A stretch of DNA of 64,000 nucleotides from Taxawa tesnikishii (nom. ined.) (taxonomy: Eukaryota; Ascomycota; Dothideomycetes; Dothideales). The stretch is from positions 1,168,082 through 1,232,081 of the forward strand of contig JAPDRO010000009.1 in the NCBI GenBank assembly GCA_030247885.1. Direction: 5' to 3'. This document shows, piece after piece, positions 3,088-61,100 of this stretch (its first letter is position 1; each line of letters begins with the position of its first letter). The translations under genes were made by a program, and so were the position numbers. Below the pieces are notes generated by a model. The model ran no database searches. It saw nothing but the letters and a program-made list of their open reading frames with translations, and had not been told where the DNA came from.

Positions 3088-3829
3088 TCACCTTCTCCTA
3101 GCCGCCACGCCGGGAGACCAAGACTCTGGCTGCCAGTTCTCACCCGGTGTGCCCGTCTGCTGCTTCGGTCCCCAAGGCGCATCCCCTTCTCCCTCGTCTT
3201 GCCCTTGAACCTTCCTTCGGTAGTAGGCCTTCCTTCGCTTGCTCTCTGCACCTCAGGCGGGTCCGCCACGGCATTCTGGACGCCTTCGTGCTCGGTAGGC
3301 TCTGTCTGCGGAGCGTATCCAGCCGGATCTTTGACGCCGATTGCGGGCTGCGGTTGTTGCTTGTCAGGTGAGTCGAGGAACGAAGGTGCGCTGTTCCAGC
3401 GCTCGTCGGCTCTGGCTGCGAGGACCTGCATGCGCTCTTGCCGGGCTACGTCAAGCTGTTGTTCTTGTATCGATGGAGCGTCTTGCCGGGTGTGACGAAG
3501 CCACTGGTGCCACTGCGCTGTGGCGGACGGTGAGCTTTGCTGTGTTGAGTGCTGGATAGGTGGTCCTTACGTGAAATCTTTACATCGGCGTAATGGGCTC
3601 GGGAGCTGTATTTTACTATTCTACGAAATCGGTTCGCGTTCAAGCGGTCCTTGAATTCCCAGAAGGTGTTGCCGGCCAGATCAGCGCCTATGTGATTGTC
3701 TGTTCAGCGATGACTCGTTGATGGCCGACCGATACTGGCAAGCATACCGACGAGAAACTGCCTCCTCCATGGGAGCTTCAGACTCTTCCATCTGAGCCAC
3801 AATCGCTTGATGATGCCCGGTGCCGACAT
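3088..3829 (-). CDS. complex I assembly factor NDUFAF2 / N7BML (NDUFA12-superfamily), frame broken by one base
   Basis: Three exons: 3829-3748, 3687-3571 and 3517-3088. Exon 1 begins MSAPGIIKRLW with the WRRQFLVG segment. Exon 2 holds GNTFWEF and RRIVKYSSRAHY. Exon 3 begins with the QWHQWLRHTR motif and continues with LDSPDKQQPQP. These are hallmarks of the mimitin/NDUFAF2 branch of the NDUFA12 family, a mitochondrial chaperone for NADH dehydrogenase assembly. The frame runs well to a G4 run (+ strand CCCC at 3183-3186), where one base is missing. In the next frame the sequence continues as a typical tail with NWQPESWSPGV and stops at 3090-3088. Read as ~209 residues. One-base homopolymer loss is the simplest explanation, because homology continues with no gap. 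The gene is divergent from the calponin gene. Confidence 0.85.
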
Positions 3830-4158
3830 GTTGGAGTAGCGTTGTTGATGGTTGCCATCTTCGCCGTTGCTGTGCGCAATGACTTGGTCGACGCCGGGGC
3901 AAATGTCGCCGTGACGTCGACTCGCGAGCCCTCAAAACAGTCTTGGCACCAATCTCTAGCGGGGCAGCCCAATACCGGTTACCAATTCCCCAGGGCTACC
4001 CAGCACACATAAACACATACATACATCCTTGGAACAGATCGCCTTCTCCCTCTTTTCTGATTACTTGGCCACTCATCGCCATCTGTATCAGAGCGCTGCT
4101 GACCCGGATTGCGCTGTAGAGCATCAATATACGGCACTGGCTGACGCAGCATACCAAG
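3830..4158. promoter_or_regulatory. shared divergent promoter region
   Basis: The 329 bases separate the start codons of the complex I factor (minus strand) and the calponin-homology gene (plus strand), so both promoters must lie here or in the first transcribed bases. I see no specific operator or TATA element I would defend. Confidence 0.45.
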
Positions 4159-6251
4159 ATGGCATCCGTGTCTTCCCTGGACCAGGACATGCGTAACCTG
4201 CGCCTCTCGAGGTATACGCCGCAGGCCGCTAGCGAGGTCCGAACATGGATCGAGGACACACTCGGTGAGGAACTGCCACCAGGCGACCTGCTGGATGCAC
4301 TCAAAGACGGCGTTGCATTGTGCAGGTAGGTTCCTCGACTTGGAGCACCGCCTCACCTGAAACACTGCTGACGCGTCTTCCAGACTGGCGAACCTAGCTC
4401 TGCCTCCACCAGGTGTCAAGTTCAAGAAATCGGCCATGCCTTTCATCCAGATGGAGAATATCTCGCACTTCCTACGGGCTTGCGAGTCACCGCCGCTTAA
4501 CATGCCAGCGCACGATCGCTTCCTGACAGTGGATTTATACGAAGCCAAAGACCCGGCTCAGGTCATCCAATGTATCGGCGCATTCAGCAGAGTCGCCAAC
4601 GCTGCAGATCCCTCCCGGTTTCCTACCACTATTGGTCCGAAACGGGTAGGAGCGTCGAGTCCCTCAACAACCGGTTATAACCCCACAAGGAATGGAGGCG
4701 CATTCCGAAACAACTCAAGCTACAATTCTCCAAAACCTTCAGCAGCGCTGCCTTCAGCCAGAGCTCTGAGTCCAACAACTACCGGCGGTTCAACAGGTTC
4801 ATCTGGACTCAAGTCGCCCGTAGGTTCAGTAAGCAGTTGGAGCAAGAAAGGCGATGAAGGAGTAACAAGCCCCGCGTGGAACATTGCCCAGTACGGATAC
4901 ATGGGTGGTGCAAGTCAGGGCAACCAGGGTATCGCGTTCGGGGCAAGAAGACAAATCACAACCGCCGCGCCACACGTGCCCAATGCTGCAGAGAAAGAGC
5001 GTAGGCGACGCGAGAAGGAGGCAGAAGACGAGCGCTTGAGGATCCAAGCAGATGAGGCTGAGGAGAAGAGACGGGTCGAGCGTGAAGCAGAAGAAGAGCG
5101 TCAGAGAGTCGAAGAAGAACAAAGATGGGAGGAGGAGTCACGGCGAACACGCGAGCAAGAGAAGAAGCGACTCGAGGAGCAGAAGCGGCAATGGGAGGAG
5201 CAGGAGCGGAGGTGGCAAGCGGATGAAGAGGCGAGGTTGAAGGAGGAGGCCGAGATGCAACGCAAGATGGAAACAAAGTCACCGCGATCGAGGGCGACAA
5301 GTGATGCCAGACTGAAGGGTCAGTTTTTGAGTCAGTATCAGGCAGAAGAAGCCGCGTCTGGACGTGGTGCGGATGGATCAGCAGACACGCCGGAACGTGC
5401 CAGGGTTCGCGAGCTTGAAAAGCAACTCGAAGAGGCCAGGGAGCGCGAGCGGCAGTATATGATGGAGCGCGAGGAGCGCATGAGGCAGGAGAACGACCGC
5501 TCGCATCCTCAACTGGCAAACCTGCCGGACCGCACACCAAGGCCACCTTCGCCGAAAGACAGTGAAGTTTCGTGGGCGCCTGACGAACGTGAGTATCTTC
5601 GTACCGAGTGGAGGAACAACAACCAGGCAACGCCATCCCGAGGGCCATTCGGTTCTGCGCGACCCCTGCCTACCCCTGGCTCAGGCACGATAAAGGCTCC
5701 TTCTCTACCCACTCGACCATTGCCTGAGTCAGGCCCGCCCCTTCGCTGCCATCCCGTCCACTGCCGCAAACAGAGCCAACGGAAGCTCCGGCGACAAGGC
5801 CACTACCAGACCCGTCGGAATACCAACCCGCACCGCAGGCGCCAAACCGTACCGATCGCTTCCTTGCCAACAACCCGGCGCCAACGGCAGCAAAGCCCCG
5901 GGCGCATCAGCCCGCCGAAATGGGCTTCACCTCGTCTCTGGAAGAGCAGAACGACCGGGACAGACGCATCGCTTCGCAGCAGAAGACAAAAGCAGGCGGG
6001 TGGGCATCCAAGTCCCTACTGGAGAGGGAAATGGAGCGCGAGCGTGAGCGCCAGCGCGAGTGGGAGGCCGGCCAGCAGGCTACCGTGAACGCGGCAAGGG
6101 ACCTCAAAGAGGGTACTGGCGAGGGCCAGAGTTGGGACGTCAATCAGTATGGGTTCATAGGTGGTGATAACCAGGGCAGGGGAGTAGCTCGGGCAGTGGG
6201 ATTGCGTTTGGGGGCAGGAGACAGATCATCGGACCCAGGCCGCCTAGATAG
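4159..6251 (+). CDS. calponin-homology protein with coiled coil and two calponin repeats; two one-base frame breaks
   Basis: Exon 1 is 4159-4325 and exon 2 starts at 4384 (intron 4326-4383, GTAGGT...CAG). Residues ~25-140 form a type-3 CH domain of the transgelin/Scp1 kind (VRTWIEDTLGEELP, DLLDALKDGVALCRL, FIQMENISHFL). A first calponin repeat (NIAQYGYMGG...GIAFGARRQI) sits near residue 225. A long charged Glu/Arg coiled coil (~240-360) and a Pro/Ser linker follow. The frame shifts at C4 (5738-5741); the next frame carries KTKAGGWASKSLL and a second coiled segment. It shifts again at G4 (6179-6182), after which a second calponin repeat ending GIAFGGRRQI closes the protein at TAG 6249-6251. 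Each shift is repaired by one extra C or G. The likely role is actin binding and bundling. Confidence 0.82.
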
Positions 6252-6994
6252 ATGGAGTGAGTAGAGAGGTAGGACCGAGAAATATGGATGCAAATATCGA
6301 ACACCGTTGCCGAGTGTCGTATCCGGCCACAAACAACCGTTGAGGCGCGAGCAGATCTGATGGGATCTTCACTACAAGCCCCAAGGCATCCCATCAAATC
6401 TGCACCTAGTGAATTTCGGGACCGAATACGACAGCTGCCGCTGTACCTGTCCTGAGCATTCATCTCATGTGTTCCGATTCGATGCGATTCGATCCGAGCG
6501 TGTGGCAGCGGCTGACACGAACGAGCAGCTGCGCGCCTGCCCACCTGCCTGCTGCAGATGTACGAGTGCAGCGCATCACCAACGCGTCGATTCCGTGTGA
6601 AGGATGTCGTGTCTTTGATGGCGCATGACGCACGACCTCGGCGGTTCTGCTGCAAGCCGCGAGCCTTGCGGATTTCAGTTGGGCAGCCTTTTTCACATGA
6701 TCCCTCACCGTACCGTACCGTACGGCTAGCCGCCTAACCGTACATATCCTACCACTGTTGTCCTGCAATAAACTTTCTCTCCTACAATATACTCTGTTTA
6801 ATGGACTCCCGCTTGTCTACTTATATCCGCTGCTTTGCTTCTTCTTCTTCTTCTCCTCCTCTGCAATAACCCTCAGTCAGGTACAACCAACACTTACAGC
6901 CGAAGCGCATACAAGCCAGTAATCGCATACACAGCATATCAGATACTCAGCTCTTCAAGAGAAAACACAGCGCTGAAAGGGCGCAACCAGCAAC
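6252..6994. promoter_or_regulatory. intergenic with CT-rich tract before the IFRD gene
   Basis: No supported gene. A pyrimidine tract of CTT/CCT units at 6835-6863 lies about 130 bases upstream of the IFRD start codon. CT-rich tracts in this position are common in filamentous fungal promoters near the transcription start. Confidence 0.45.
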
Positions 6995-10652: not shown

Positions 10653-11014
10653 CTACTTTCTGTGGAACAAGTCTGCCCCAACCTCGGAAAAGAAGCCTTC
10701 GAAGAAACCAGCAACCTCAGCCTCCGGGAGAGTGGTGTAGACGAACAGCGCTGCGAAGAACGCAGGATTGATGTAATGACCCAATCCAGGAAGAAGTCCT
10801 TGGAAACGGTTGTAACTGTGTAGTCTGAAGGGACAGAAGACCAACACGCGCGCGCCTTGTTTTCGACAAGCGGCCGCCGGAGTTTTGCTACTCGGCAAAT
10901 CCGAAAGTGGATCATTTGCCGTTACTGCGGGCTCTAGATGTTTGTACTTTGACATAGCATGAGAGTTGCTTGGCCTATAATGGCAACAATAACTAGAACG
11001 GTAAACGTGGTCAT
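10653..11014 (-). CDS. putative small membrane or secreted protein, possible one-base frame break
   Basis: An ATG at 11012-11014 opens a 20-residue hydrophobic N-terminus (MTTFTVLVIVAIIGQATLML), then the frame stops. In the next frame, overlapping at an ATGTCAAAG, about 100 codons continue to a stop at 10653 with a hydrophobic GLLPGLGHYINPAFF segment and an FFEGFF segment. One missing base near 10955-10965 would join them into ~120 residues. Neither part resembles a family I know. It is one of several small minus-strand ORFs with N-terminal membrane segments in this part of the window. Confidence 0.3.
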
Positions 11015-15788: not shown

Positions 15789-16555
15789 TTACGCCTCGTC
15801 ACTCCGTTTTAACCTAAACAACCTCCCCCACCCTTCCACCGCATCCTCAACCTCCACCATCCTCAGCGCCCACCAAGCCGTCACAACCACACTATCAAAA
15901 ATCCACTTCCCCAGCTCCCTCTCGGTACCCTCCACCAACGGCGCCGCAGGCCAATTCGTACACGCCACTACCACTGCCTCACTTTCCTCATCGTCCGCCT
16001 TCCGGATAACATTCCAGATGGCCTCAACCCTGGTCCTCGCAATCTCACGATTGCTCTCCGGCACAGCCTGCATCCTCGCCGTCTTCACAACCTCAAACCC
16101 ACACCCGGAATAAAACGTTACCAGCTTGGCAGTAAGCGCGTCCGTATACGGCACCGCAAGACTGATCCTCTGCACCCCGGTAAACTTCAAGGCCTCGACC
16201 ATGGCGAGCGTGGTCGTGGAGCAAGGAACACCGGTCGCGGCGCTCATTTCCGCTGCCAGCTGTTCGTCAGCGGAGAGATCGGCGCCGATCCACATGCCCG
16301 ATGTCCCATTCCAGAGAATGGCGTCGACGCCGGCGTCGGCGAGGAGTTGGGCTGCGGCGATCATGTTTGCGGTGGAGAATTGGGACGTCGAGGCGGTGTC
16401 AGTGCCGAGGGTTTGGACGCGGACGCGGCTAAAGTGGACAGATATGGCTGGAGAGATGGAGGAGAGGATGGCCGTTGTGAGGGGCTCGAGGGCGGTGTTG
16501 GAGGAGGGGACTATGAAGCCGAGTTTTTGCAGCTGGAGAGGTTGGGGAGGGGCAT
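15789..16555 (-). CDS. Asp/Glu racemase superfamily enzyme (maleate isomerase / arylmalonate decarboxylase type)
   Basis: The frame holds LGFIVPSSNTALEPL, the usual N-terminal strand and Asn motif, then ILWNGTSGMW, a central PCSTTTLA segment, SLAVPYTDALTAKL, and VVACTNWPAAPLVE with the C-terminal catalytic Cys. Racemases and maleate isomerases have two catalytic Cys, one per half; here the first-half position reads Gly-Thr-Ser, as in arylmalonate decarboxylase, so a one-cysteine chemistry is likely. No ATG lies in this frame near the start. An ATG at 16553-16555 is one base out of frame, just before two C4 runs (+ strand GGGG at 16544-16547 and 16549-16552). One extra base there gives a natural start and ~255 residues. 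Substrate unknown. Confidence 0.8.
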
Positions 16556-16965
16556 TGTCGGTGAGTCCGATGGAGTTCTTGGGGTGAGGAAGGGATGGGT
16601 TAGTTGGTAAAGAGAGGCTGCGAGGTGCATGGATGTTGAAAGGAGGACAAGGGAGATTGGGAAAGATAGATATTTGTATGAGTAAGAATAGATGGACTGG
16701 CACCACCTTCCTTTTTCTGTGGGATAGGCCAATGAAGCCTTGATAAGATGCTAAATAGATGGTACAGAGTAGTGATATGCATACCTGCTGCCTTCGTTGT
16801 GTGGCTGTGCAACTACACTAGGCTCGAACAGACAATCCCACTATAATGCAGGTGTTTCGGGTGAGCTGTTCGGACTGCCGACGAGCCAGACTATGATTTG
16901 CCTGTAGCCTGCTCTTCGCTCATAGCCCACTTTGGTAGTCGTTGGGTATTCCACATATCGTCCCT

Positions 16966-17424
16966 TTACAAGAAAAGCAGAGATCCTCCGATGATCAACG
17001 AATTGCAAACACCAAAGATGTGTCCGTAGATCGCGCTCTTGTCACCGTACCACTCCACAAGCAACAAATCCGCCAGTGTCGTGACCAACCCGCTCGCAAC
17101 AACCGTTCCCAGCGCCCGTCTATCCCTCCAATACGCGCCGAACGCAAGCAAACAGACGCCGTTCTGGATGTTCCTCGACGCGATCGCTGCGACAAGCGCG
17201 CGCTGCTGTTTTGATGCCGGCGTGTCTTTCTCCGCTTCTTCTGAGGCTTGCAACCTCCCGGGTTGAGTGGTTGATGTGAAAGGGAGACCGTAGCCTTTTG
17301 CGAATTCGAAAGGGTTGGCGAGACCGCCCAGGCCGAAGAGGGAGACCTCCATGCAGCCGATCAGGATGGCCAAGGTCTCGGCTGGTGGTGGGAGCCGGTT
17401 GAAGATGGGGTGGATGGAGCTCAT
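16966..17424 (-). CDS. DUF4267-type small membrane protein
   Basis: Single exon of 152 codons from ATG at 17422-17424. The order of segments fits DUF4267: an N-terminal span (ETLAILIGCMEVSLFGLGG), the 'NPFEFAKGYGLPF' region, a polar loop, RNIQNGVCLLAFGAYWRDRRALG, then two further spans, the last ending at the C-terminus. Four membrane helices in total. The function of the family is not known; members often sit beside secondary-metabolism enzymes. Its neighbour, the racemase-like gene, is on the same strand 410 bases downstream, so a metabolic link is possible but not shown. Confidence 0.7.
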   Translation of the reverse strand: MSSIHPIFNRLPPPAETLAILIGCMEVSLFGLGGLANPFEFAKGYGLPFTSTTQPGRLQASEEAEKDTPASKQQRALVAAIASRNIQNGVCLLAFGAYWRDRRALGTVVASGLVTTLADLLLVEWYGDKSAIYGHIFGVCNSLIIGGSLLFL

Positions 17425-19777: not shown

Positions 19778-21705
19778 ATGCCTCTCAATCGCAATGGCAT
19801 TTATCCCTCGTCGGATCCGGACTTCGTCGCTTTCCCAAGCCGGAGGAGTGTTGTCCACAGCACCAAGGGTATCGTGTCCAGCACGCAGCCACTAGCCTCA
19901 CAATGTGGTCTCAAAGTTCTGCAGCAGGGCGGTAACTGCGCCGTAAGTATCCCCGAAGTAACACTCAAATTTTGTACTGACGAGCCCTTAGGACGCCGCA
20001 GTCGCCGTTGCAGCAGGTCTCAACTTGACCGAACCCGGTAGCACAGGTATCGGTGGTGACATGTTCTGCCTCTTCTACAATGCCAAGACGAAGAAGGTCC
20101 ACGCTCTCAACGGATCGGGACGCGCGAGCGGTAATGCAAGCTTGGACAAGATCAGAAACGCGTTGAGTATCCCCGACGGCGAGTCGGGCACCATACCAAT
20201 GTCGAGCGCACACGCGGTTACCGTGCCAGGTGCTGCAGCGGGATGGGTGGATGTTGTTGAGAAATTTGGCAGTGGAAAGTTGAGCATGGAACAGATCCTC
20301 AAGCCCGCCATTGAGTTGGGCGAGGAGGGATTCCCTGTCTCGGAGCTGATGGGATACTACGTAAGAACGTCTGAATGCAGGTCGTGGCAAGCGGTATTGA
20401 CACAGTTGCAGTGGAGCAAGGCCGAGCAGGCAATCAAGGATGCATCCCCCAACTTCGCCGAGATGCTGAAGAAGGACCCGAAAGCAAAGGACGGCTGCAG
20501 AGCACCGAAGCCTGGTGAGATCATGAGAAACCCAACTCTGGCGAACACCTTCAGACTGGTAGCCAAGCACGGCAAGGCAGGCTTCTACTCTGGATCCGTC
20601 GCGGAAGAGCTGGTTAAGGTCGTACAAGATCTCGGCGGATTCCTTACACTGGACGACTTGAAGAACCACATGGAGAAGGGCAGCGAAGAGGTGGACCCAA
20701 TCAGCATCAAGTTCAGCGCACAAGGTACTGGCGACCTACAGGGCGAACACATGCACGACAACTCAAACGAGGGTGTCGAGGTCTGGGAGCACCCGCCCAA
20801 TGGTCAAGGTATCGTTGCCTTGATGGCACTGGGCATGCTGCAGATTCTCGAAGAGCAGGGCAAGATCAGCAAATTCGACGAGAGAGCCCACAACAGCGCC
20901 GAGCACCTACACGCCGTGGTCGAGGTCCTCCGCATCGCTTTCGCCGACGCCAACTGGTGGGTCGCCGACCCGAACGTCTCGAAGGTCCCCTCGGCACGAC
21001 TCATCTCGAAAGAGTACCTCACGGAGCGCTGCAAACTCTTCAGCCCAGACAAAGCCTCAGACTTAATCCACCACGGCTCACCCGCACACAATCACTCCGA
21101 CACCGTCTACTTCGCCGCCACGGACAGCGAGGGCAACGGCATCTCCTTCATCAATTCCAACTACGCCGGCTTCGGCACCTCCATCATCCCCAAGGGCTGC
21201 GGCTTTACCCTGCAGAACCGCGGCTGCAACTTCGTCCTCCAACCCCCGATCACCCTAACATTTTCGCCCCGAACAAGCGCCCTTACCACACCATCATCCC
21301 CGCTCTCATTACCAACCCGTCCGACCAGAGTCTGCATTCGGTCTACGGTGTTATGGGCGGCTTCATGCAACCACAAGGCCACGTGCAGGTCCTGCTAAAC
21401 ATGGTCACCTTCAAACTCACCCCGCAAGCCGCACTGGACGCACCCCGCGTTTGTATCGGTGCCGGTATGCCGGATTCGGGCGATGTCTATGATCGTACGG
21501 TGTATCTCGAAGACGGGGTTCCGAAGGAGACAGCGGAGAAGATGAAGGAGATGGGACACCAGGTTGAGTACGTGACGGGTATGGCGAGAGGCTTGTTTGG
21601 GAGGGGCCAGATTATCAGGTGGCATGTGGATGAGGTGGAGAAGAGGGGGTTTGGAGCGCGGGGAGCGACCCTAGGGGTGATGGGCATGCGCTGCCTTGGA
21701 TGTAG
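19778..21705 (+). CDS. gamma-glutamyltransferase-like Ntn hydrolase; two one-base frame breaks
   Basis: Exons 19778-19942, 19992-20360 and 20412 onward; the second intron is 51 bases and keeps the frame open. Exon 2 starts DAAVAVAAGLNLTEPGSTGIGGD, the gamma-GT signature region. Later come FTLDDLKNH-type, PPNGQGIVALMALGML, and HSDTVYFAATDSEGNGISFINSNY, where the Thr of DTVYF is the expected autoprocessing nucleophile. At C5 (21243-21247) the frame breaks; the next frame continues with APNKRPYHTIIPALIT and YGVMGGFMQPQGHVQVLLNM. At G5 (21645-21649) it breaks again; the final frame ends GDGHALPWM with TAG at 21703-21705. Each needs one more C or G. No signal peptide is seen, so a cytosolic, bacterial-like type. 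It cleaves gamma-glutamyl bonds, for example in glutathione. Confidence 0.88.
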
Positions 21706-24853: not shown

Positions 24854-27363
24854 TCAACTTCCAAAGTGCACGTAAGGCGCCCAAGCGAGAGGCTGCTTCA
24901 GGGCCTGGGCTCTCGTCTCCACCGTCGCGTGATGGACGGCCAACGCGAAATTGTCCCAGCTACTGGTCTGCTTCTGCTGGAGCACCAAGTGTTGGTAGAA
25001 CGACTTGGCAAACTGAACGCAAATCTGATCTTCCGCCGGCCATAGGCATCCGATGGCGTGGGCGAAACCTGCCACTAGGAAACCGGTTGCCAAATGCAAG
25101 GCCTCATCTGCCAGCAGGGCTGCGCCCATCTGTGCTGTCGAGCAGGCAGATAGATACGCTAGTTTGCCTCGGTTCAGACGGGTATCAAAAACTTGTTGTA
25201 GTGTTAGTGGATCTGGCACTACGTGTGCCTTCGTCGTACCAGCGTCGATGCAGCGTTGCATTACAAGATGGCTTAGTGAGGGAAGGGTTCTGTCTGCTAC
25301 CCCGTGGCAAGCAAGGTGGACTATTTCGCATTTGCTCATCTCCAGAAGGACTGTTTTTGCACTGGGATGGACAATCAGGTCGACGTCAAAGTTGGCTTCT
25401 TCGGCAGCCGTGTGAAGAGCTTCGGCCTCAAGGCCAACGTATTGCAACGGAGCTGAACCGGGAGTCGTCGGCATCGTAACGGCGAGCACCTTGGATCTGT
25501 TATCTGGTGATGAGATGGCAACAGCGCGAGCTTTTTCCGAGAATAACCCAATGCCTTCACAGTTGGTATATACGAAGAGACGACGTGGCTGATGGTGTTC
25601 TCGGTCGTTGAAGACGTGTGTTCTCCTGCGGCATGAAAGGGCAGGGAACTGGCAAGCCCAAAGCCGATCCACCAGACCTGGCGCGCGCATTCAGCGGGAT
25701 GTGTAACATCTGGTATCTCATCAAGAATCGGCTTTATGCAGAGCCACTACAGTTCGGATAGCATTTCGCGGAACCGCTTGTTGTTCGCTCCACGTTGCGC
25801 GGGCGAAACGTCGCCTTTGGTGAGGTCTATTTCCAGCCAGCCACGACATCTCTGTGATGTCCACTCGGGCAAAGTAACGAGCTTCATGCTAGAGATTGAG
25901 ATTAGATTACAAACCCGTCACTGCGAATATCAGATATATTGACAACAATGATGTAGCCGTCCACGGCTTCCCTCATGATCTCATCCGAGGTCAGGCCAAG
26001 TTGAAACCGCTCAAGCCCTGGGAGTCGTCGAATTTTTTCCAAGCAGTGTTCAAGCTGTCTGCGGGCTTCCTTTCTGCTGCTTGAAGCGCTGTATCGCTCG
26101 TCGTTCATTTCAGTGTCGCTGATGGGTGCATTAATTCGAGCATGCAGAGCTTCATATTCTTCGAACAGACTGGCATGTTCCGATGACTTGAGGGTTGCAT
26201 ATTCACTCCGCGCGTCCAGCAATAGACCAAGAATCACTCCGCGAGCTTGCTTGAGTACTTCGATAGCCCCCTCAGTCTTGCCACTTACTGCGAGATTGAG
26301 AGAGCAAGCCTTGGACGCTCGACCTGAGAAGCGACCAATGGTACGCTGTTGATCAGCAAGTCTAACAGATCGGCTGCTCATGCTTGGCATCAACTTGATT
26401 GCATCTATTGCCAGGGCGGCAGCTTCTTTCCAGTTTCGGCACTCGATGAGCAGATCAACTGCCAGAGTTGCACAACTGATGCGCGGGAATGGTGGTGCAA
26501 AAACGCAATTCCAGCCTGACAGATAAGCGTCAACTGCACGTTCTCTGTGCTCTGTCTGTGGAGCCAGGTTGAGAATCAAGCCTAAATCCACGAAGGCAAT
26601 GCAAAGCTCTGGGTGATTCTTAGGCATGTGTTGGACGGCAGACTCCGCGCTAGCGAGCGCGTCGTCAAAGGCACTCTGGCTCTGTAGCTTCTGAAAACGG
26701 AAACGAAGCGTCAAGGCTAGATTGCTTAGAGCTTCCGCTTTTTTGCAGTGTATCTTGCTGAGTGTCGACGAGCGATTTGATAACTTTGATGGCATTATCT
26801 AGGTCTTCAAGAGCCGTTTCGCCCCTGAGTTCGCTACGCGAGCGCAATACGGTGCTTAGTGTCATACGCAACGCCTCTTGATCGCTGGCCGAAAGCGGCA
26901 TGCTTGTCAGCGCGGCTCGTATCATGTCAGAAGCGTTGTTGAGCTCTTCAGGTCTTCGAGAACGCAGGAAACGCGAATGGGGGCAGTTGGCAAGGGTGTT
27001 GACTAAAGCTGGCCGGTTTATATAGCCTGTAGGAGCCACCTCAAGTGCCTTTTCCGCATAGTGTATGGCGTCGTTCAGGTGGTCCATATCCTCGCTGAAT
27101 CGATACCACTCCCAAAGCCTGCCGGAGAGACTGTGTAGGCTTGGCGTCTCTGTCTCATAGAACTGCGCTAGTAGCTGTCGGCTGTTTCGAGCGAGCCATA
27201 CTGCTCTATCGGCATCCGTCGCCGGAGGTCCATAGCCAGCTCCAGACAATTTGGTGCGCTCCAACGAGTTTATGGCTGCTAACGTGGTTGGCACCTGATC
27301 AAGCAAGGAGCGTGCAGATGCGATGGCGGTGCAATTACATGCGGAATGGGATGTTGGCTTCAC
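24854..27363 (-). pseudogene. TPR-CHAT domain protein gene, frame broken at several places
   Basis: Read from 27363 down. An N-terminal helical repeat region (RLWEWYRFSEDMDHLNDAI, AEKALEVAP) and further TPR-like units (FDDALASAESAVQHMP) lead into a conserved GYIIVVNISD linker. The C-terminal CHAT domain follows, with VWWIGFGLASSLPFHAAG, catalytic His in IVHLACHG and catalytic Cys in YLSACSTA, and GFAHAIGCLW. CHAT proteases are caspase-like and act in programmed cell death and defence systems. The coding frame breaks at an A6 run (26739-26744, one base too many or two missing) and near 25911-25916. It then hits a TAG at 25747-25749, and shifts again at an A5 run (25532-25536). The mixed lesions, and the stop, favour a pseudogene, though sequencing error may account for part. 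Confidence 0.75.
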
Positions 27364-35067: not shown

Positions 35068-36716
35068 TTAGTAATGTTCATGTGCTGCGAACCTCATCTC
35101 CGCAGCCCCAACATCAAAGACCGCAACAACGTTGGTAAGGAACACATCACCCAGGATATACGGTCCCTCGCCACCATTCTGGATGCCGGCATTGCACAGC
35201 CCATTTTCCCGTCCAACATCTTGAATCAAGTCAACAGGGTTGATCCAGAATGCCTTGCCACCAATTGTGACGCCGATGCGTGGAGCGGTTGCATTGCAAG
35301 GCACAACGTAAGCCTCTAGAGCGGGATCCGGGTAGCCGGGGGATCGTACAATGCAAGCAGCGTGTACGTGAGGTTACGTGGCAGGTACATCAGTGAGGTC
35401 CCGGAGTCGATGATCATTGGGAAATCGGTTGTGATAGTATCAATGCTCTTATCCATAGGCTTCCAGCCTTTTGGGGGTCCTTTCAATGGGTTTGACCAGG
35501 TGCCGGAGGAGTAAGTGGTTTCATTGGCGCCTTTGAACACGAAACCGTCCGGATATATGGTGTAGAAGGAGTACTGAGTTGCCGTCAATGGCTCCGACGT
35601 CACCTGGAGGATCTGGATCTGTGCAGAGGCGAAGTTGTCAGGCTTGTACGTAGGTAATCCAGGTGGCAGGCCGCCTATAGCGAGTGTGCTTGTGACATTG
35701 CCTCGTTCGAGAACGAGAGTGAAGAGAGGTGCCGCCTCGCCCTGTGTAAAAATCGTCGTAAGGATAGGGCTATACTCGACCCCATCGGACGCGTCGGAAG
35801 TAGTGTCAACGGCCGGGTTGTTACCCTCGAAAGCAGAGGTGAGAGACGGGAAAGCGAGACCTAGGATACCAGAAGAGATGCCGTTGCCAAACCAGGATGC
35901 ATTCTGAACTACGGCGATTTGCTGCCGGTTTACGGTGATGTTGGCTAAGGTCACTCTCTCGTACCCGAAAATGCCAGTGAGAGCCTCACCACCTCCATAA
36001 GTGATGTTGAAATACTCATCTGGGATCCGAGTAAAAGTCGGGCTACTGAGAGTTAGGCTGTGGGAACATGCATGTCACTAGCACTTACGAAATGGTGTAG
36101 AGGGGCCCCAAGTTGCAGTAATATTCTGGCAAAAAGGTCAGGTTGAGCGAGTTGACACAATTGTAGCCAGTCTCAGCGAGCCTGAACTGCTGTTGAGCGT
36201 GATTGGCAGGCACCTCAGATGATGACAACTTACCAGGTGTCACTGCTGCCTGTGTCGATTGCGACCTCGAACCAGGTATCTCCCACCTCAATCCATGTCA
36301 AGTATTCCTGTAAGAAACGTTATATTTTTACCTCATGATAGATGGATTTTGGGTGAACTCTCACGGCTCCATATTGTGAATGAAGTCCAAAGACATCAGA
36401 GACAGCATAGGTATCTTCAGCAGAGACACTGCCTTTCTGTATAGCACGGAGGTGCTTGGAGCTTCTACCCGCGCCGGGTTTGGAAGTCAGAGACAGGACG
36501 TTGGAAGTCTCAACAAGCGGACTCGCTTCCGAGAACGCAGCTGGAGTGTAGCCAGTGATCTTAAAGCCTGCGCTCTTCACGTCAGCACCATAGGTGCGAA
36601 AGTGGGTGAGGATCTGTACCTTTGACCCCGGACGCGGCCCGCCTCGAAGCATCCTTAGCGTTAACTACGGCGAAGCTTAGCAGCCATGATGATACGAACA
36701 GAGACAAAGGCGCCAT
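35068..36716 (-). CDS. secreted pepsin-type aspartic protease; one-base frame break near the 3' end
   Basis: Five exons: 36716-36620, 36567-36332, 36307-36234, 36181-36089 and 36057 to 35068. Residues 1-20 are a signal peptide (MAPLSLFVSSWLLSFAVVNA), then a propeptide with VKGFKITGYTPAAF. The mature part has VAIDTGSSDTW (first catalytic Asp), a Cys-bearing loop (GYNCVNSL), ITYGGGEALTGIFGYE (flap region), GILGLAFP, and MIIDSGTSLMYLP (second catalytic Asp). After ATRIPL the frame stops at 35316-35318. The next frame continues with YVVPCNATAPR, GLCNAGIQNG and ILGDVFLTNVVAVFD, a normal A1-protease end. One missing base at a short G/C run near 35323-35343 explains the break. The protein acts outside the cell or in the wall. 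Confidence 0.88.
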
Positions 36717-40176: not shown

Positions 40177-40220
40177 ATTGGTGGAGTTACGTGGTGTTGA
40201 AGTTTGGGGTGGTTGGTGCC

Positions 40221-40500: not shown

Positions 40501-42341
40501 CTACCTCTTATATGTATAAACCCACTGCTGCGTCCCAGCATTCAGTCCAACCAAATTTAGAGAATGCGCATCACATGTATAGTTGATCACCATTCCTACC
40601 GGCACAAAGTCGTTTGCTATCTGAAGAACCACGGGGTCCTCGCCTAGCCCTACATCCACATGTGCTTCCCCGTCCCACTCTCAACATTCAGACAAAAATG
40701 TCCCGTATCCTGCATGAATAGCGATGCTTTGAATTCGCCGTTAACCGTGGTTTTGGTATCAAAGGCAAAGCCACCGGCGTTGATCGTCATGGCAATTTCA
40801 AGACCGGAATAGGTTGCGGCGACGGAGCCCGGGTCTGCTATATCGAAGGTCCCGGTGCCGGAGAGGGCGATTGGAGAAACCGAGACCGGCTGCGTCGCTA
40901 GAACTTGCTCGAGGATAACTTTCATGTTATCAAGATCAAGGCTCCAAAGGCCGAAGAGGCACCGGTCAAGCGGGGTACCACGGTCAACACAGGTTCCGTT
41001 TGAGGGCGCAGTGCTGTTTGTGGGAGATGATGGCTTGGAGCAGTTGGACGGTTGCGGGGATCCTTGACGGCGGGTACGGCGACGGGCGGGGGCCGAAGTG
41101 CTAGGTTCGCTGCAGTCGCAGGGTTGGTCGAGGGTTTTGGCGATTGTCAGGATTGCAGTTGCTTCGTCGACGTCGTCGGTGGACGTCATCATCACGAGGA
41201 GGGCAAGTGACGCTTGTTCGCAGCCTATAGGGATGGTGACGGGGGTGCTCTTGACTATTCTGGTCCAGGTGCTGTTTGATGCATCCCGGTACTCGAGTGT
41301 TACACCTCTGAGGGTTGTTTCGTAGGACATCTCGATGGTTTGACCCGGGTCAAGGATAACTTTGGCGACGTAGATTGCGGTGGGCTTCACCTTGAGGGTA
41401 AGTTGAGCGGGAACCTCTTCGATGAGAGTGGGCACAGTCAGGAAATCGGGAGGTAGAGGGTTCGTCTCGATAGACATGCCGTTCGTGTCGATTAGGTAGC
41501 CGAGCTCGAAATACTCTGCGAAGAATTGGAAAAGTTCTCCGAAATTCTGGAAGCTTGAAAGCCGGCTTCGTTCTGCGTTGAATGTAGGTGTATACGTCTG
41601 CGTCCCGACCCAATCGTTGATCTTCGAAGGGGACACGCCATTCATCTCCATAGACTGAAAGAACCCATTGGCTGAGTACGGGTCATTGTTGTAGATAGGC
41701 TTTGTGTCCTCGTAGTTGAACACAACCGAATTCTCGGCATTGTATCCAGGATAGACGACGTTGGACATGTAGTCTGCACTGCCCTCAAGCCACCAAGCAT
41801 GAGGCCATGTGCTCTCGTCGTCGGAAAAACCGTAGCTGTCAGGCACAGTTCCAAGCATTGTATCTTGAGCGCAGTGGTATATCTCATGCGCAATAGTCTG
41901 TAACTGGGATCCGTTCTTGCTGTTGAGGAAGCGGTTGAAGATTTTGACCACACACGGTCCATCTCTCCCTTTAGGACTCAAGGCCGCAGCCTGGCTCTCC
42001 CGACCGCCATTGAAATCGCGTGCCTCGAGAATAACGAAGATGATTTCTTTCGCTATTTGCAAGTTTTGAAATTTGTCGAACCTCCAATAAGCGTTAATCG
42101 CATCGTTGGCTGCTGTCTGAATCGAGGTCAAGGCACTCCTCATCTTCGACGTAAGTGTCCAACCATGGTGGTAATGGTATATCGAGACAGGGACGCCAAG
42201 GATCGTTTGGGGATAGCCTGCTTCGGTCACCTGGACACACTGGGGCAGACCATCCAGAAAAACACTGCAATCGAAGGGTGCCGGAGCCTGTGCGGCTACA
42301 AGCACACACCAAAACAGGAGAGATTGCATAAAGACGATCAT
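40501..42341 (-). CDS. secreted HExxH metalloprotease-like protein; one-base frame break near the 3' end
   Basis: ATG at 42339-42341 (a second, at 42327-42329, would also give a signal peptide). Residues 1-20 are hydrophobic and end VLVAAQA, a secretion signal. Near residue 155 is TIAHEIYHCAQD, a zinc-binding HExxH, with WWLEGSADYMS some 30 residues later, as in gluzincin-type enzymes whose third ligand is Glu. A beta-rich domain, then a Ser/Thr/Pro/Asn linker with an Arg-rich RRRTRRQG site (possible Kex2-type cleavage), lead to a Cys-containing C-terminal domain. At G4 (+ strand CCCC 40668-40671) the frame would stop at 40650. With one base more it continues through EDPVVLQIANDF to GTQQWVYTYKR and stops at 40501-40503. 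Substrate unknown. Confidence 0.75.
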
Positions 42342-52540: not shown

Positions 52541-52585
52541 CTAACGTAGTTCACCACCGAGCGGCCAACCACCACCGAGTGGCCC
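52541..52585 (+). repeat. terminal inverted repeat, left, of the Fot1-type element
   Basis: 45 bases, perfect inverted match to 54348-54392, with a two-unit CACCACCGAGYGGCC array. Confidence 0.92.
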
Positions 52586-52666
52586 ACCCCACTAAAGTTG
52601 CGTCTATTACATGTCTATTACCTCCGCACCACTACACTCTGCTGCAATCTGCCAGGCACTACAGTA

Positions 52667-54307
52667 CTATTCAGAAGCGTCGCTATCGCCTGGATCTACT
52701 ATTTCTGCAGTGCAGGTGCGCTTGTTGTGGCCAGTCTTGCCGCAACGCCCGCAGTGCCTCTGCGCGCGCGCCCTCTTTGCAGGCTGTTCAGCTGCCTCCT
52801 CACCACCACCCTCCTTCTCAGCAATCAGATCCAATACGTCGCCTACTGCAAGGCTCTCCTCTGTGCGAACATACTTCCTCTTGCGTTTGCGCTGCTCTGT
52901 TGCTGCCTCTATTGCCTTGCGAAGACCTGCGATTTCCCTGGTCTGCAACACTGAATTATGACCTATGATAGCTATGCCTTTGGCAAGCGAATTGACAGCC
53001 TGCAGAAGAGGTGAAACAGGCGATTCTCTGTGCTGTTGTATGCGCTCGCGGACTAGTGTTGATTGGGCCTCTATCTCCTGCAGGTTGCCTGGTGTTTTGG
53101 ATTCCCATAGGGTGGCCTCTACCGGTGGAGGTGTTGGCGTGCGAAGCACCACATCAAGCTTCGATAGCACTCGCTCTGGGTCGTGGGGACCAACCCAGCG
53201 CCTCTGAAGCTTGCCTGGATATTCTCCTTTGTGATTGCCTTGTCGAAAGCGATATGAAAGGCTGGCAAGAAGCTCTCTTTCTTGACTTGCGTGACTGAGT
53301 ACCGTGACCAGCTGTCAATCTCCGTGTAGTACGCCCGCTTCAGGGGGCAAAACAGCCCACGTCAAGCGGCTGCAACAGGTGCGATGAGTGTGGAGGCATG
53401 CAGAGAACAACAATCTTCTGTTCCTCACAGTACTTGTGGAAACTGTGACTATTGTGGCTCTCATGGCCGTCCACAATCAGTAGACGATACATTCCTATAG
53501 TACGCCCCTTTGTATGCGCGTCAAAGTGCTTTAACCACCTGATAGCAAGCTCATTTGACGTCCAGCCGTTAGGGCTAGTCTCGATAACCCAATCACGAGG
53601 CAGGCCTGGGTACCAGCTTGATATGAGGACCTTGCCGCCGAAGATGATAAAGGGTGGGATAGCCCACCCACTAGCGCAGATGCCCTGGATGATTGTAACC
53701 CACTCCCGGTTGCCCGGCTGTATCTTCTTTGGATTGTTCCGCTTCTCAGTGCCTGTGAAGACCATATGAGCGTTTATCACGCCCATCATGAAGCCTGTCT
53801 CATCAAAGTTGTGTGTGTCTTCATCCAGGATGCCGTACTTCGCCTTTGTGTCCTCTACAAGCTTGAACCAGGGCGCTATAACGCGTGCATCTTCGTTCAA
53901 GGCTCGCTGACGATCGTATGGACGGCTGCGTCGAAGCTTGATATCGTCGATACGCGTCTTGAACCTGTCTACCCAGTTCTTGCCAACGGGCCCTTTCCAC
54001 GCGCGGCGCGTAGATCATTGGCCATTTCTCCGACCATAGTCCTTGTAGCGCCTATCCCTCGCGCATCTAGCTCAAGTATGCGTCGCACAACTGCGTCCTC
54101 TTCTAGGCTACTAAGGTTCCTGCAGTTGGGCTGAGTATCGCGTCGTGAGAGGGTTCCGTCGCGTCGTCGTCTTAGCGTCGTTCGGGGGACGTCAAACGCT
54201 CTGCTTGCGTGTCTCGTAGTATCTGGTGTCTTGGCTTGGGTAGCCTGGATAGCAAGGGACAGTGTGCCTTCGTTGTAGGTCTTCTGCGCGTTACGTGGTG
54301 GTGGCAT
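52667..54307 (-). CDS. Fot1-type DDE transposase with zinc knuckle, three one-base frame breaks
   Basis: ATG at 54305-54307 (MPPPRNAQKTYNEGTLSLAI). The N-terminus has an HTH (ASRAFDVPRTTLRRR) and a CENP-B-like HTH (RTMVGEMANDL). After a break at GGGCCC (53988-53993) the next frame carries GKNWVDRFKTRI and the DDE_1 core: NFDETGFMMGV (first Asp), LLIVDGHESH (second Asp), MPPHSSHLLQPLDVGCF (third Asp). A break at G5 (53343-53347) leads to KRAYYTEIDSWSR, and one at G4 (53185-53188) to LSKLDVVLRTPTPPP. The C-terminus has a zinc knuckle, CGRCGKTGHNKRTC, before the stop at 52667. Each break is mended by one extra base in a G/C run, so the real gene is probably intact, ~547 residues. Confidence 0.85.
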
Positions 54308-54347
54308 TGTAGGCAATAGACATGTAATAGGCAAAGGTTGGTGAGGC

Positions 54348-54392
54348 GGGCCACTCGGTGGTGGTTGGCCGCTCGGTGGTGAACTACGTTAG
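54348..54392 (-). repeat. terminal inverted repeat, right, of the Fot1-type element
   Basis: 45 bases, perfect inverted match to 52541-52585; the next base inward differs (A versus G). Confidence 0.92.
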
Positions 54393-57300
54393 TATATTTA
54401 ACAGATAAATAAAAATATTAGTAAATATTATCGTAAAACTTATAGTTAAATATAATATAAGCGAGAGGAGCGCCCGACTAACGTAAAGTAAGTAGAAGCT
54501 AAGAACGAAGTAATACTACTATAAAAGATAGTTAAGTACTAAAGGATTTTTATCTACTAGGCCTATTTAGCGTTTTTCGAGGTAAGAGAACGTAAGTAAA
54601 GAGTATAAGAAGGTAGCAAGGTACAAGATATTCCGAATAGTAAGACGATATAGTCCTAGTTTATAGCTAAGGTAGTTAAGAATATAAATAGTATTAAGGC
54701 GAAGATAAAGGTAAAAATCGACGAAAAAGAAACGAATAAAGTAAGCTAGTAGTTAAATAAAATAAAATAAGACGCGTATTTAGTAAAGTTAGACTATAAG
54801 TAGTTAATAGTAAGCGTAAACTAGTTAGACGAAACGAAGGAGTTAATAGAAGTAGTAATTTAAAGGATAATAAAGAAGTTAGCCTATATAATATAGTAAA
54901 TAGTAAGATAGTAAGCTAAGTATTTTATATATATTAAGGTAATCTAAATAAAAGACAAGTAGACGAAGTATATACTATTAATAGCGTACTAAAACGTAAA
55001 GGGAATATTAATATATACGTAGCTATAAAAGTAGTTATTAATATTTTTCGCGCGGACTATATATAAGAAGTATAAGTAAGATAGTTCGAAGTACTAGTTT
55101 AATAGGAAGTAATAAAGAGCGTAAAAGGTATTATAAAGGTAAGTAAAGTAAATAGTAGTATATTTACAATTAATATAACTATAAGTAAGGAGTATTCTAG
55201 CTAAATAAGAGCGTAATAAATAAGTAATACTAAAGGACGAAGAAGAGTTAAGAGTAAGTAAAGGAGAAGAATAAGCTAAAAGGGCAAATACGAAAGAATA
55301 GGGAAAGTTATTAAAAGTAAAAGAAACGTATTTAGAATTTTATATTATATTATTAAATTAAAGTAATATAGCGAAAGATTATAAGTACGCGATAGTTTAT
55401 ACTATAACTATTTTAGAAGTTAAAGAAAGAGAATAAAAGGAGACGAATAGTTACTTACTAATTTTATTTAAGTTAATTAAGATTTCGTAGTTTATAGTCG
55501 TATAAAAGGCGTTTTAAGACGAGGGACTAAAGGAAATAAAAGACGAATAAGCGAAAGGAGTAAATAGTAATAAAGAAGATAATAATAGCGATAGTAATTA
55601 TAAGACTATTATTAGTAATATAGCGTAGTCGGAGGGAAGAGAGGAGTAATTATAGTAGTTAAGGAGATAGTAGACTAATTTATAGTACGTAAGATAAGTT
55701 TACTAATATAGTAAATATTAAATTTAAGGATATACGAGTTAAAGATCTATTATAATACGACGGCGAAAGGAAACGTAGATTAAGTAAAGGGTAATATAAT
55801 ATAGTATAAAGTATTATAGTTTAGTATAAATATATTTTATAGATTTATATATAAGTTAATAGTAAATATAAAGCGCTAGTTAAAAGAAGAGTTATTATAC
55901 GGATTTCGGGCGCTATAGATCCTATAGTAAACGTTACGTAACGACGCTAATAATACTACGTATAAATAGAGTTTTTTATAAGACGAGAGAAATTAGTTAA
56001 ATATAATCGAGTAGACGTAGTTATTTAATATAATCTAAAGTAACGTATAAGTAAGGGAAAGGTTTATTAAGTTAAAAACATTAGAAATTAAGAGGGCGAA
56101 AGTAAAGGAGTATATAGTTAACGTAGTAGAGTTTAAAGCGAAGTTATTAGTATTAATATACGTTATAAGTAGTTAACTAGCGAGGGCGCTAGAGTTATTA
56201 AGTATAAGGTATAATAACATAGTTAAGAGAAAGTATAAAAACGTATTTATAAAGGACGAGTTAGTAGTATTTATAACGAGGTACTATAAGGAGTATTTTA
56301 TAAGTAAAGACGTTAAGATTATTTACTAGTATTTACTTAGAAAGGTAAGGGATATATTAGTTAAGTATTTATAGTTAGTATTACCGTTTTAGATAGTATT
56401 AAAAAGTAGTTTTAGCTAGACTAGGAGGAATAGTAGAGCGTTTCTAATTATTTATAATACTAAGACGTAGGACTATATAATAAGAAGTAAATATTAGTAA
56501 GAATATAGTAAGTAATTAAGTAAGAAAGTACGAAAGAGTTAAGATAAGAATTAAGTATCTAGTTATATCGTAAGTTAACTATTAAAATTAGTTAGAAGTT
56601 TATACGAAAGGTAATATCGTTCGAGTAAGATAAGGACGACGAGGATAATAAGAATAGTAATTAAAACGAGGATAACGTCGAGGAGAAGTTAAAGTTAATT
56701 ATAAATAAGTAAGTAAAATATACGTTATACGTAGTAAGTATAATATACGCTAGGTTATTAAATAAGATAAATAGTAGTATAATAGAAAAGAGGAAGTAAT
56801 TTAAGTAGTCTAGTACTATATAGTACGCGTTTTTAGAGTTCGCGTTAGTAGTAAAAGAGAAAGATAAGTATAAGTATAATATAAATATAAGACGAAAACG
56901 TAAGATAAGGGAGCTAATAATAGTATAAGAAAACTAAGCTAAATAAGTACGCGTAGCTAAGTAAAAGTTATTACGTATTACAAATACAAAATAATAGTTA
57001 AAGGAAATAATAAAGTTAAAGGTAAAGTTTAAAGGTATATAAAAGCTAGCGATCGAGGTAATTATATAAGGTAAGCCTAAGGTAATAGTAGTTATAATAA
57101 TAAGAGAAAGTAAGAATATATTATTTATATTACTAGTAATATACGTACTAGGTAAGTTAATAGTTATAATAGTACTATTAGTAGTATTATAGCAAAATAT
57201 AATATAGCGTTATAAGTAAGTAAGTATTACGTATATAAAGTAAGAGGTATACTAGTAAGTAGACGACGTAACGATAATATTTATAATACTAAAGTTAGTA

Positions 57301-57655
57301 GTTAGTAAAGGGTTTAATACGTATATAAACTAAGTAAAGAGGAAGTTAAATAGGATCGTAATTGACGAGTATTACGTTATTTTAAACAATAATTTAAGTT
57401 TCTATAAGCGTATAAGTTAAATAAGTAAGTTAGTAAATACGGAGGTATAAATAGTATTATTAATAGCGACGTTATTACCGTCGAAGGAGGCGGAGTTATA
57501 AAGGAAGATATATTAGAGTAAGAAGGAAGTAAGGATATTTAGGGCGAAAATAACGAGGAAGAAAATTAAGTATAAAGTAGTAGAAGTAAAAGGGAAGACG
57601 CGGCAAGAGTATAAGGAGTTTATAGTAGAGTTTATAAGAAGGAAATACTACTCGT
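54393..57655 (+). pseudogene. RIP-degraded relic, probably of a telomere-linked helicase N-terminal region
   Basis: No open frame survives and CA/TG are nearly absent. One frame at about 56272-56395 reads TRYYKEYFISKDVKIIY, a stop, then YLLRKVRDILVKYL, a stop, then LVLPF. This parallels VKYHKGQ...NPVGDLLLDYLVYVVPL of the intact helicase gene at 60118-60237. An earlier frame near 54900-55060 (IWRTMKKLAYII-like, ILLIAYQNVKG) parallels its preceding part less clearly. I infer a second, RIP-killed helicase copy; before the Fot1 insertion it was continuous with the block ending at 52540. The right edge is sharp at about 57655. Alternative: an unrelated repeat with chance similarity. Confidence 0.45.
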
Positions 57656-58104
57656 AGAAGTCAAACGAATGGCCACGATTCGTTTGCTTTTGCGTGGGCT
57701 ATAACCCTAAGGGTTAGAGGAACGACCACGATTCGTTTGCACCTGTTGACCACGATTCGTTTGCCTTCCCGAGCCCCAACCTTCTCGAAACCCACACACT
57801 ATACTGTCATAAGGTTATTCTCTCTGCATGCCAAACACCACTCATATATATGCCATATACATGGAACATCAAGGGCGGCGGTCTTAAAAGGAAAAAGATG
57901 AGGCGCCTTGTGCATAGGCCACTCCCGCATTTTCGCAGGGCGGCCTCTCCAAACAAAGACCAGCCCTGTGTCTATGCGACGTGATCAGTACGCTCTAAAC
58001 AATTGATCCTGAGCATCACATGGATCCTTTAAATCCTTAGAAAGGTAATATAGCTATGTCTGGCCTCGCAAGTATGGCAGCCGTGAAGGCAAGCCAAGAC
58101 TCAG
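57656..58104. promoter_or_regulatory. helicase upstream region with direct repeats
   Basis: Normal composition returns abruptly. Three copies of (GA)CCACGATTCGTTTGC lie at 57672-57687, 57724-57740 and 57748-57764. The first is also half of an inverted repeat (CAAACGAAT...ATTCGTTTG at 57662-57686). Between copies 1 and 2 is a head-to-head telomere unit, CCCTAAGGGTTAG, at 57705-57717. The region ends at the helicase start codon and must contain its promoter. Confidence 0.55.
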
Positions 58105-61100
58105 ATGGATGATTTTCATCGTCTCTTCCAAGTAGTCGCCCAGCACCGCATCCTTGTTTGCATCCATTGTCAGTATGCAGTCGTACCTTCGCAGCTCGCC
58201 AAACATCTTCGTGTGCATCACAAGCGTCTCAGCTTACAACAACGGCGGGACATTATTGCCAAAGTCGGGTCTTTTACCGAACTTGCGCAAGTCGAGGCAG
58301 ATGTCATCTATCCAGCAGCAACAGAGCCTCCCGTAACGGGACTTCCGGTGTACTTCGACGGCTTGAAGTGTGGCGGGAAAGATGGCGAAGGCAGGCTTTG
58401 TCCCTATATATGCCGCACTCCGCGTGGCATGCAAGATCATTGTGAGCGGCAACACGGCTGGGTCAACGGACAGAAGCGAGGCGGCGATGCTCGTTTGAAG
58501 CAGGTCCATACCCACAACAAGCTGTGGTCTTGCGACCGCGCCTGTCAGCGTTTCTTCAAGGTCGGAAGCTGGCAGAGGTACTTCGAGGTCCAAGTAGCGG
58601 ACCTGGAGATTTGCGGTCGGAGGCGAGCCGGTCACCAGCGTGACTTCTTCCGGACGCAAGAAGAAGACATCCTTCAGGCAGAGCGCGACGCCGCATCTGC
58701 GGCCAACCGTGTCCGCGGATTCGACGAGCATCGTTCTACCGTGGTACCATGGCTCAGAGAGACCGGCATCGTCGACCATGTCTGCGGCTTGAAGAAAGAC
58801 GAGATCCGAGCAGCGATCGCCGTGCCCTCGCGAGACGAAGGATGTCCTCTGCGGACGATCGTCGATGCGATGGAGGACGTGCTCAGGGAGGCGCACGGCT
58901 GGTGTTTCGACGGACCCGACTGTATGCTCACTTGGCCATGTCGCGTCGTTCTCAGTCGGTTCCAGTCGTCGCAGGTCGAGTCGATTGGGAAGGTTCGGCC
59001 GTTCGATCCTTACAAGGAGCCCGGCACGCTCAAGGTCTACTTCAAGCTGGCGTCACAGTTCCTGTCGTACCTGGAGCGAGTGGCGATCTGTGACGAGTAC
59101 CACTTCAGTGCTGACTCGGAGGAGACGATCCGGCCAGAGGACGTGATCGAACCGACGGACAAGCAAAGGGTGGTGTGGCATAACCTCCGTCGGTTAGCAG
59201 AACGGGGAGCGACGGGCACGGGTGAAGGGATCAAGGGCCAACTGAGAGATGGGCTGGTTGAGTTATGGATGCTCGTTATCCGTCACACTACCGGAGCCCG
59301 ACGGTACCGCTCGCCAATAGTGAGCTTCTGCGCGATGCTAAGCATCAAGCCGTCTACGCAAGGCTGGATGGAACCCGGCAACTTCAACAGCAGTCTGTCT
59401 GCGATGATATGGGTCGCGCAGCTGCTGATCTTCTATGACTGTGCTCGCAAAGAGCGGCAGGGTGGGGAGAAACGCTCGCGCTCGTCAAGGAATGCTGTGA
59501 GAGTTATCTGCAGCAGACGGCCGAGACGCCGATGGGGAGATACTCCGCTGGCGCCTGTTGCTGTTTCGCATCTCGAAGGACAGCGTGGGTGATCATGAGG
59601 CCTGTTGGGACGAAAGCGAACAGGTCCTGACATACGAAGATACAGAGCTGCGTATGGACCAGATCCCCACGCTACTGCTCTCCGAATACCGTGAGTGCGA
59701 ACGGCTACTGTACGACGACTTGCTGCTGGGTCAGAAGGACCTACGCCGCATGCAGTCTTGGGCGCTTAGAGATAGCGGCAACGTCGATACCGTCGGCTGG
59801 AGCTTGATCCAGCATCGTGACAACGCTCTCCTGCTGAGGGGACGGACAAAGCTCTGTTGGCCGCCGTTGAGCGTTCCGAGCAACTGTGCCGCCTTTTCCT
59901 TCAGCAAGACCGTCGATCAGCGAGCGGCTTCGTTTGGAGGGACAGTGCGCTAGCCGGCTACGAGGCAACTGTGCAGGAGTTCTTGAAACGCTTGTGTGTC
60001 CTCGTTCACATCAGTGGCGGTCAGCCCATCCGCGAAAGCGAGTTCTTCTCCATGACCTGGCGGAACACGCAACGACGACGATCCATCACACTCCGCCACG
60101 ATCGTGTCATGATACATGTCAAATACCACAAAGGTCAGCAGCAGACGGGCAGGTACAAGGAAAACATCCGGTTTCTCGCCAATCCGGTGGGCGACCTGTT
60201 GCTGGATTACCTCGTCTATGTCGTGCCGCTACGACAGGTCTTTCTGCGGCAGCAATCACCAAAGGCACTGCTCTCCTCGTTCTTGTGGGAGAAAGACGGA
60301 AAGGTGTGGGGCGAAGGACGGTTGAGTCGTTGTCTGGAGGAAGCCAGTGCTCGGGCGTGCACACCCCGGCTTCACGTTTCCAACTGGCGCCAGATGAGCG
60401 TGGCCATCGTCAAGACCAAGTTTGCGAGCAACATAGGCTGCTTCGAAGTCAACGAAGACGACGAGGACGCCGAGGAGATGGAGGAGGATATCCGAGCGAT
60501 GACGAGACAGCGCAACCACAAGACACGCACGGTCAACAGGGCGTATGCCAATCAGACGGGAGCGACCTTCGGCAACGTGTGGGACGGGCTGATCCGAATG
60601 GGACTTCGCGCGTCAACGTTGTGGCAGGACTTCTGGGGAGTGGAGACGATGCTAAAAGGCAAGAAGCGAAAGAGGGACGGAGAAGAGTGTCGACTGAAGG
60701 AACGACTTGCCAAGGGTGTCTATCGGCCCCGCAAACCGTGGTCGGCAGAGGCTCTGCTGGAAGGGCTCAGAAAGCTCTACGGCAACCAGAGAATGATGTG
60801 GAAATCGAGGGAGCAGGAACAGACCCTCACCACGATCATGTCGTGGACGGAGCAGGTGGTGGCCATCTTGCCAACCGGAGCCGGAAAGAGCCTGTCCTTC
60901 ATGTTGCCGTGTACGCTGCCTGATGCCGGGATCACCATCCTCATCGTGCCGCTCGTATCCCTTCGGGCAGACCTGCTTCGGCGGATACGGGAACTGAACA
61001 TCGCTCACCTCGAATGGTTGCCGGGAGAAAGTCGAGAAGCATCGCTGATAATCGTCAGCGTTGAGGCTGCGGCCACAACACACTTCACGAAATACGCACG

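Follow-up and report, generated by a model that had tools for sequence, protein, structure and literature searches.

Frame breaks at short G/C runs near a telomeric contig end very probably reflect nanopore under-calling

At fourteen places in this fungal locus a gene seems to leave its reading frame and continue in the neighbouring one, and the question is whether these breaks are genuine features of the genome or faults of its sequencing. The earlier note had favoured the second answer for all fourteen, each being mended by one more G or C in a short G/C run. The window analysed here, 64,000 nucleotides in length, forms the terminal 64 kb of contig C34 (1168082-1232081) in a genome of 29.4 Mb in 34 contigs. 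It carries NDUFAF2-like, IFRD, tyrosinase, RF-1, PAS/RGS, transpeptidase and aspartic protease genes, as well as long AT-rich blocks; together with a TTAGGG telomere, these point to a filamentous fungus. We are highly confident that the frame breaks are short G/C runs under-called by nanopore sequencing, in a contig built from Oxford Nanopore reads and insufficiently polished. Taken singly, eight of the fourteen breaks are strong and three probable, but two are undecided, with a 55-nt intron fitting as well, and one is weak; these grades are our own and cover the frame break, not its cause.

The kind of read that built this contig is recorded in its last bases, where two features follow one another:

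63898-63978, + strand: TTAGGG telomere repeat, from a tandem-repeat call and the sequence itself, the last bases irregular
63979-64000, + strand: Oxford Nanopore ligation adapter, the final 22 bases of contig C34, after the telomere

The adapter at the contig end is absent from the earlier note. Its sequence matched exactly in the window and in 0 of 100 shuffles. With up to three mismatches allowed it occurred twice in the whole 29.4 Mb, once in the first 22 bases of contig C23 and once in the final 22 bases of C34, and the pattern read backwards gave no match in the 29.4 Mb at the same tolerance. By our reading, the window's final 22 bases correspond, reverse-complemented, to the start adapter given in the excerpt of PMC7490894, and 21 of the 22 open both the end adapter of that excerpt and the bottom strand in the excerpt of PMC12886913. 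Untrimmed nanopore reads therefore built both adapter-bearing contig ends, C23 and C34, and the entire assembly presumably comes from nanopore reads only.

Next to the telomere stands a gene with many copies elsewhere in the assembly, in which three of the fourteen sites fall:

58105-62538: telomere-linked RecQ/OrsD-like helicase gene, here the end gene
59460-59467, + strand: undecided frame break in the end gene, read from the frames; a 55-nt intron also fits
59534-59537, + strand: undecided frame break in the end gene, read from frames and codon scores; removable by the same intron
59838-59841, + strand: strong break, a G run one base short in the end gene; longer in 8 of 40 scored copies otherwise identical in 1401 bases

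The comparison covered a 1401-base part of the gene (58800-60200) in 40 scored copies of 51 candidates, the window's own included. Thirty of the 40 had an equal top score over the full 1401 bases, and the other ten were fetched. In eight of these the sole difference from the window was a longer G run at 59838; one carried a single substitution, at 59359, and one had two bases fewer near 59993. The segment holds seven runs of at least four, and the one that varies is the listed site. At 59460 and 59534 there was no difference in the ten fetched copies, nor by full score in the other 30 of the 40, and this agreement with the window counts against an artefact there. The first of these two breaks, which had been placed at 59460-59462, may just as well lie in the GGGG at 59464-59467.

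The 1401-base part is nearly identical across the 40 scored copies, which mostly lie 3.7-5.2 kb from contig ends where this distance was computable. Just ahead of the end gene a short motif, CCACGATTCGTTTGC, stands in three repeats at 57660-57765. On contig C2, telomere arrays face each other inside the contig, at 865105-865176 (+) and 865729-865764 (-), with an end-gene copy at 869467; the arrangement reflects either two chromosome ends joined in error or a genuine fusion.

A second repeated element holds three further sites:

52551-54400: DDE_1 transposon, found at 20 places at about 100% identity, its own included
53185-53188, - strand: strong break, a G run one base short in the DDE_1 transposase, from copy comparison
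53343-53347, - strand: strong frame break in the DDE_1 transposase, presumably of the same cause, from codon scores on both sides
53997-53998 (CC), - strand: strong break, the actual place of the one given in the earlier note as 53988-53993; C run longer in 7 of 8 near-identical copies

Sixteen of the 20 places are on contig C2 and the remaining scored copies are divergent, as though the element had recently multiplied on a single contig. Of the 19 other near-identical places, nine were compared around 53185-53343, eight around 53997 and three whole; six divergent copies were fetched for 53185-53343, five of them alignable, and L086, which does not align there, was left out. At 53185 the run is longer in eight of nine near-identical copies, and all five alignable divergent copies have one base more there; in four of these, substitutions interrupt or change the run. 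At 53343, where the DDE_1 profile ends at 123 of 177, nine of nine near-identical copies have the window's length, which again counts against an artefact; among the five alignable divergent copies, two are one base longer and three equal the window. Around 53997, weak HTH_Tnp_Tc5 matches cover profile positions 3-35 before the break and 48-65 after it, both below the cut-off. The three whole copies show five one-base G/C run-length changes, at 53185, 53997 and 54184, and no substitution inside the element; further differences at 54390-54398 are beyond the element's end as we read it. Run length thus differs between near-identical copies at three of the fourteen listed sites (59838, 53185 and 53997), plus 54184. 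At 54184-54188 the disagreement is in the opposite direction, the window's G run being one base longer than that of copy L089.

These copies bear on whether the breaks are real frameshift mutations, marks of pseudogenes in a decaying transposon and in subtelomeric genes. Six of the fourteen sites do lie in the transposon or the telomere-end gene, and the region has long AT-rich stretches, as such a history would suggest. Decay, however, should add substitutions, whereas the whole transposon copies differ inside the element by run length only and the ten fetched end-gene copies have one substitution among them; the remaining eight sites, moreover, are spread over six other genes. We consider real mutation very improbable. 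It would be still more improbable that runs of only four or five G/C are truly length-variable by replication slippage, with copies switching frame in a manner resembling phase variation. Programmed -1 ribosomal frameshifting, or transcript slippage at the G/C runs, would account for the sign of the breaks, which is the one that a -1 shift needs, but same-sign breaks occur in unrelated genes and the longer run is present in the DNA of near-identical copies; because the difference is in the DNA, we set this mechanism aside as next to impossible.

The case for under-called runs outside the repeated elements was built from protein matches, codon scores and a frame caller. The caller rests on codon statistics, allows introns and penalises a missing and an extra base equally (F); codon scores at the fourteen sites were taken in the frames implied by the earlier note, which we supplied. 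The eight sites concerned are:

3183-3186, - strand: probable missing-base break in an NDUFAF2-like (N7BML) gene, whose upstream piece matches
5738-5741, + strand: strong missing-base break in the gene at 4436-6264, which has a weak calponin-homology match; from frame caller, codon scores and a repeat
6179-6182, + strand: strong missing-base break in the same calponin-homology-like gene, from the internal repeat
16544-16552, - strand: weak, a possible break where a maleate-isomerase/arylmalonate-decarboxylase-like gene begins, from an upstream ATG
21243-21247, + strand: strong missing-base break in a gamma-glutamyltranspeptidase gene, from PF01019, homologues and frame caller
21645-21649, + strand: probable missing-base break, late in the gamma-glutamyltranspeptidase gene, from a tail in the next frame
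35323-35343, - strand: strong missing-base break in an aspartic protease gene, from PF00026 on both pieces
40668-40671, - strand: probable missing-base break, late in a gene that matches DUF6055 below the cut-off, from the codon score

At 3183 the upstream piece matches 6rfq_k (E 5e-4), with an NDUFA12 match below the cut-off; the downstream piece (32 aa) had no convincing match in Pfam or PDB, and the codon score favours a break only slightly. The calponin-homology match of the gene at 4436-6264 is likewise below the cut-off, and the gene, the only one of the other broken genes checked for copy number, has a single match. For its 5738 break the caller (F=9) reported a missing base at 5744, codon scores on both sides agree, and an internal protein repeat is readable in both frames; at F=7 and F=5 the caller gave two extra bases (at F=7, 5729 and 5913) and not one missing. 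The second half of this repeat goes on in the next frame at 6179, a continuation matched in height by 0 of 2000 shuffles. At 6179 the caller was silent (F=9), and there, as at 21645, the codon score was uninformative, the downstream stretches being short and running into stop codons. At 16544 the enzyme domain lies within one frame, and a break is suggested only by the upstream ATG in the next.

Of all the sites, 21243 and 35323 have the best support from proteins. In the transpeptidase gene the PF01019 profile runs over 12-373 before the 21243 break and 386-490 after it, the solved homologues 2i3o and 2nlz run on across it, and the caller placed a missing base at 21235 (F=9). Both homologues have one residue where the window has five bases, and two extra bases fit equally with one missing, a point that counts against the artefact; frame alone never separates the two cases. 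The tail in the next frame at 21645 (23 aa), which we take to resemble the transpeptidase C-terminus, had no Pfam or PDB match. On the two pieces of the aspartic protease, the PF00026 profile covers 57-159 (best stretch) and 234-314, both pieces have PDB matches, and the caller's missing base is at 35343 (F=9). At 40668 the downstream frame has a codon score of -2.7 against -27.2 and -57.4, and the downstream piece gave no convincing family match in Pfam or PDB. It would be logical to assume that the sites beyond those where copies disagree were broken by the same cause.

Some of the sites may instead be short introns misread as frame breaks. At F=9 the caller placed an intron at or near six of the fourteen sites: 2799-3108 at 3183, where it stood in place of the break, 16578-17010 at 16544, 53312-53538 at 53343, 59462-59516 at 59460 and 59534, and 59856-59920 near 59838. 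The fourth of these, a possible 55-nt GT-AG intron, would clear its two sites together. Near 59838, however, the copies differ in run length at the break itself, which makes the intron unnecessary, while an intron at 53343, where two of the five divergent copies are one base longer, would cut the matched transposase region. The caller also made seven false intron calls over 80 synthetic genes with neither an indel nor a planted intron. We regard introns as possible at some sites, though unlikely.

Turning to the under-calling itself, the caller (F=9) reported a missing base four times in the window, never more than 15 bases from a listed site, and an extra base not once; it called nothing at 6179, 21645, 40668 and 53988. 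That missing bases were called at only four of the fourteen sites counts against an artefact, as do the ratios of missing to extra bases in the window at looser penalties, 5:3 (F=7) and 9:6 (F=5). Across controls of 20 stretches of 10 kb (200 kb) from the same genome the ratio was 19:3 (F=9), 38:8 (F=7) and 5:0 (F=11), and this excess of missing bases means that the fault is not local to the window. On synthetic genes the caller was near-symmetric: 80 genes with a deletion drew 59 missing-base calls, 80 with an insertion drew 51 extra-base calls, and the sign was never wrong.

Ten of 23 missing-base calls had a G/C run of at least four no more than 20 bases away, compared with 14.9% of ORF positions drawn at random (binomial tail 0.0009), although ten of 23 is also a small enough share to count against the artefact. 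Five of the 23 were near an A/T run at least four long, the share of random positions being 11.8%, and none of the three extra-base calls was near a G/C or A/T run of that length. G/C runs of at least six numbered 6 in the 200 kb of controls, where order-2 and order-3 chains predict 27-32 and an order-1 chain 60; for A/T runs of at least six the figures were 30 observed, 36-38 expected (order 2 and order 3) and 51 (order 1). The excerpt of PMC8486125 describes long G/C runs as scarce in reference genomes also, and for this reason we do not accept the depletion as proof of under-calling; it is only suggestive. Read on the G strand, the base after the nine break runs of exactly four G/C is A in eight of nine cases, against 336 of 864 such runs overall, in a tally made by hand and after the fact that counted 59464-59467 as site 59460 and, of the two runs at 16544, the first. 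The A-G step is described in the same excerpt as harder to distinguish in the nanopore signal than the A-T step, a difficulty that would fit this tally.

One gene outside the earlier list breaks the pattern:

24857-27363, - strand: CHAT/TPR gene with unlisted breaks of both signs

An extra base, opposite in sign to the listed breaks, interrupts its frame at an A6 run (26739-26744), and a missing base, of the common sign, does so at an A5 run (25532-25536). The gene also contains a TAG stop in frame (25747-25749) and another break near 25905. The outer pieces match TPR and CHAT, and the middle pieces presumably belong to the same gene; Pfam gave no match for what lies upstream of the CHAT domain, and the extra breaks there are putative, read from the frames. 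This gene may be a true pseudogene. Breaks of both signs together with an in-frame stop are what real mutation would leave in one, and the opposite-sign break in an A run counts against the artefact.

The central contention of the earlier note, a systematic homopolymer under-call and not biology, is borne out by the adapter, the disagreement among copies, the 19:3 excess in the controls, the proximity of calls to G/C runs and the scarcity of such runs. Its uniformity was overstated. All fourteen sites are one base short or two long in the frames it implied, but the A6 break in the CHAT/TPR gene has the opposite sign; missing-base calls are indeed enriched near G/C runs, but the CHAT/TPR breaks are at A6 and A5 runs; and among the listed sites one is shifted, another perhaps so, two are possibly an intron and one is weak.

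In the mechanism that we favour, the contig would have been assembled from Oxford Nanopore reads and inadequately polished, the basecaller and consensus would lose one base in certain short runs, for the most part four or five G/C long, and every lost base would move the reading frame and make an intact gene appear split. Annotators of this assembly would be misled into reporting split genes, pseudogenes or false introns in genes that probably work, and gene counts or pseudogene claims drawn from it would be wrong. There is also a gain in method, in that near-identical copies within one assembly act as built-in replicates which expose run-length errors without reads.

Errors of this type are already known, including from nanopore-only fungal assemblies. 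In the excerpt of PMC8486125 ('Troubles and biases'), deletions dominate in nanopore reads, run length is underestimated, and calling is poorer in C/G than in A/T runs; the reads there are from bacteria, human and rapeseed RNA, whereas here we are dealing with a fungal consensus assembly. Closer to our case are the nanopore-only assemblies of Drechmeria coniospora, in which, according to the excerpt of PMC7500977, homopolymer-length errors shift the frames of many genes, as here, and were corrected by short-read polishing. The same excerpt has that polishing putting in more insertions than deletions, whereas missing bases dominate in the assembly studied here.
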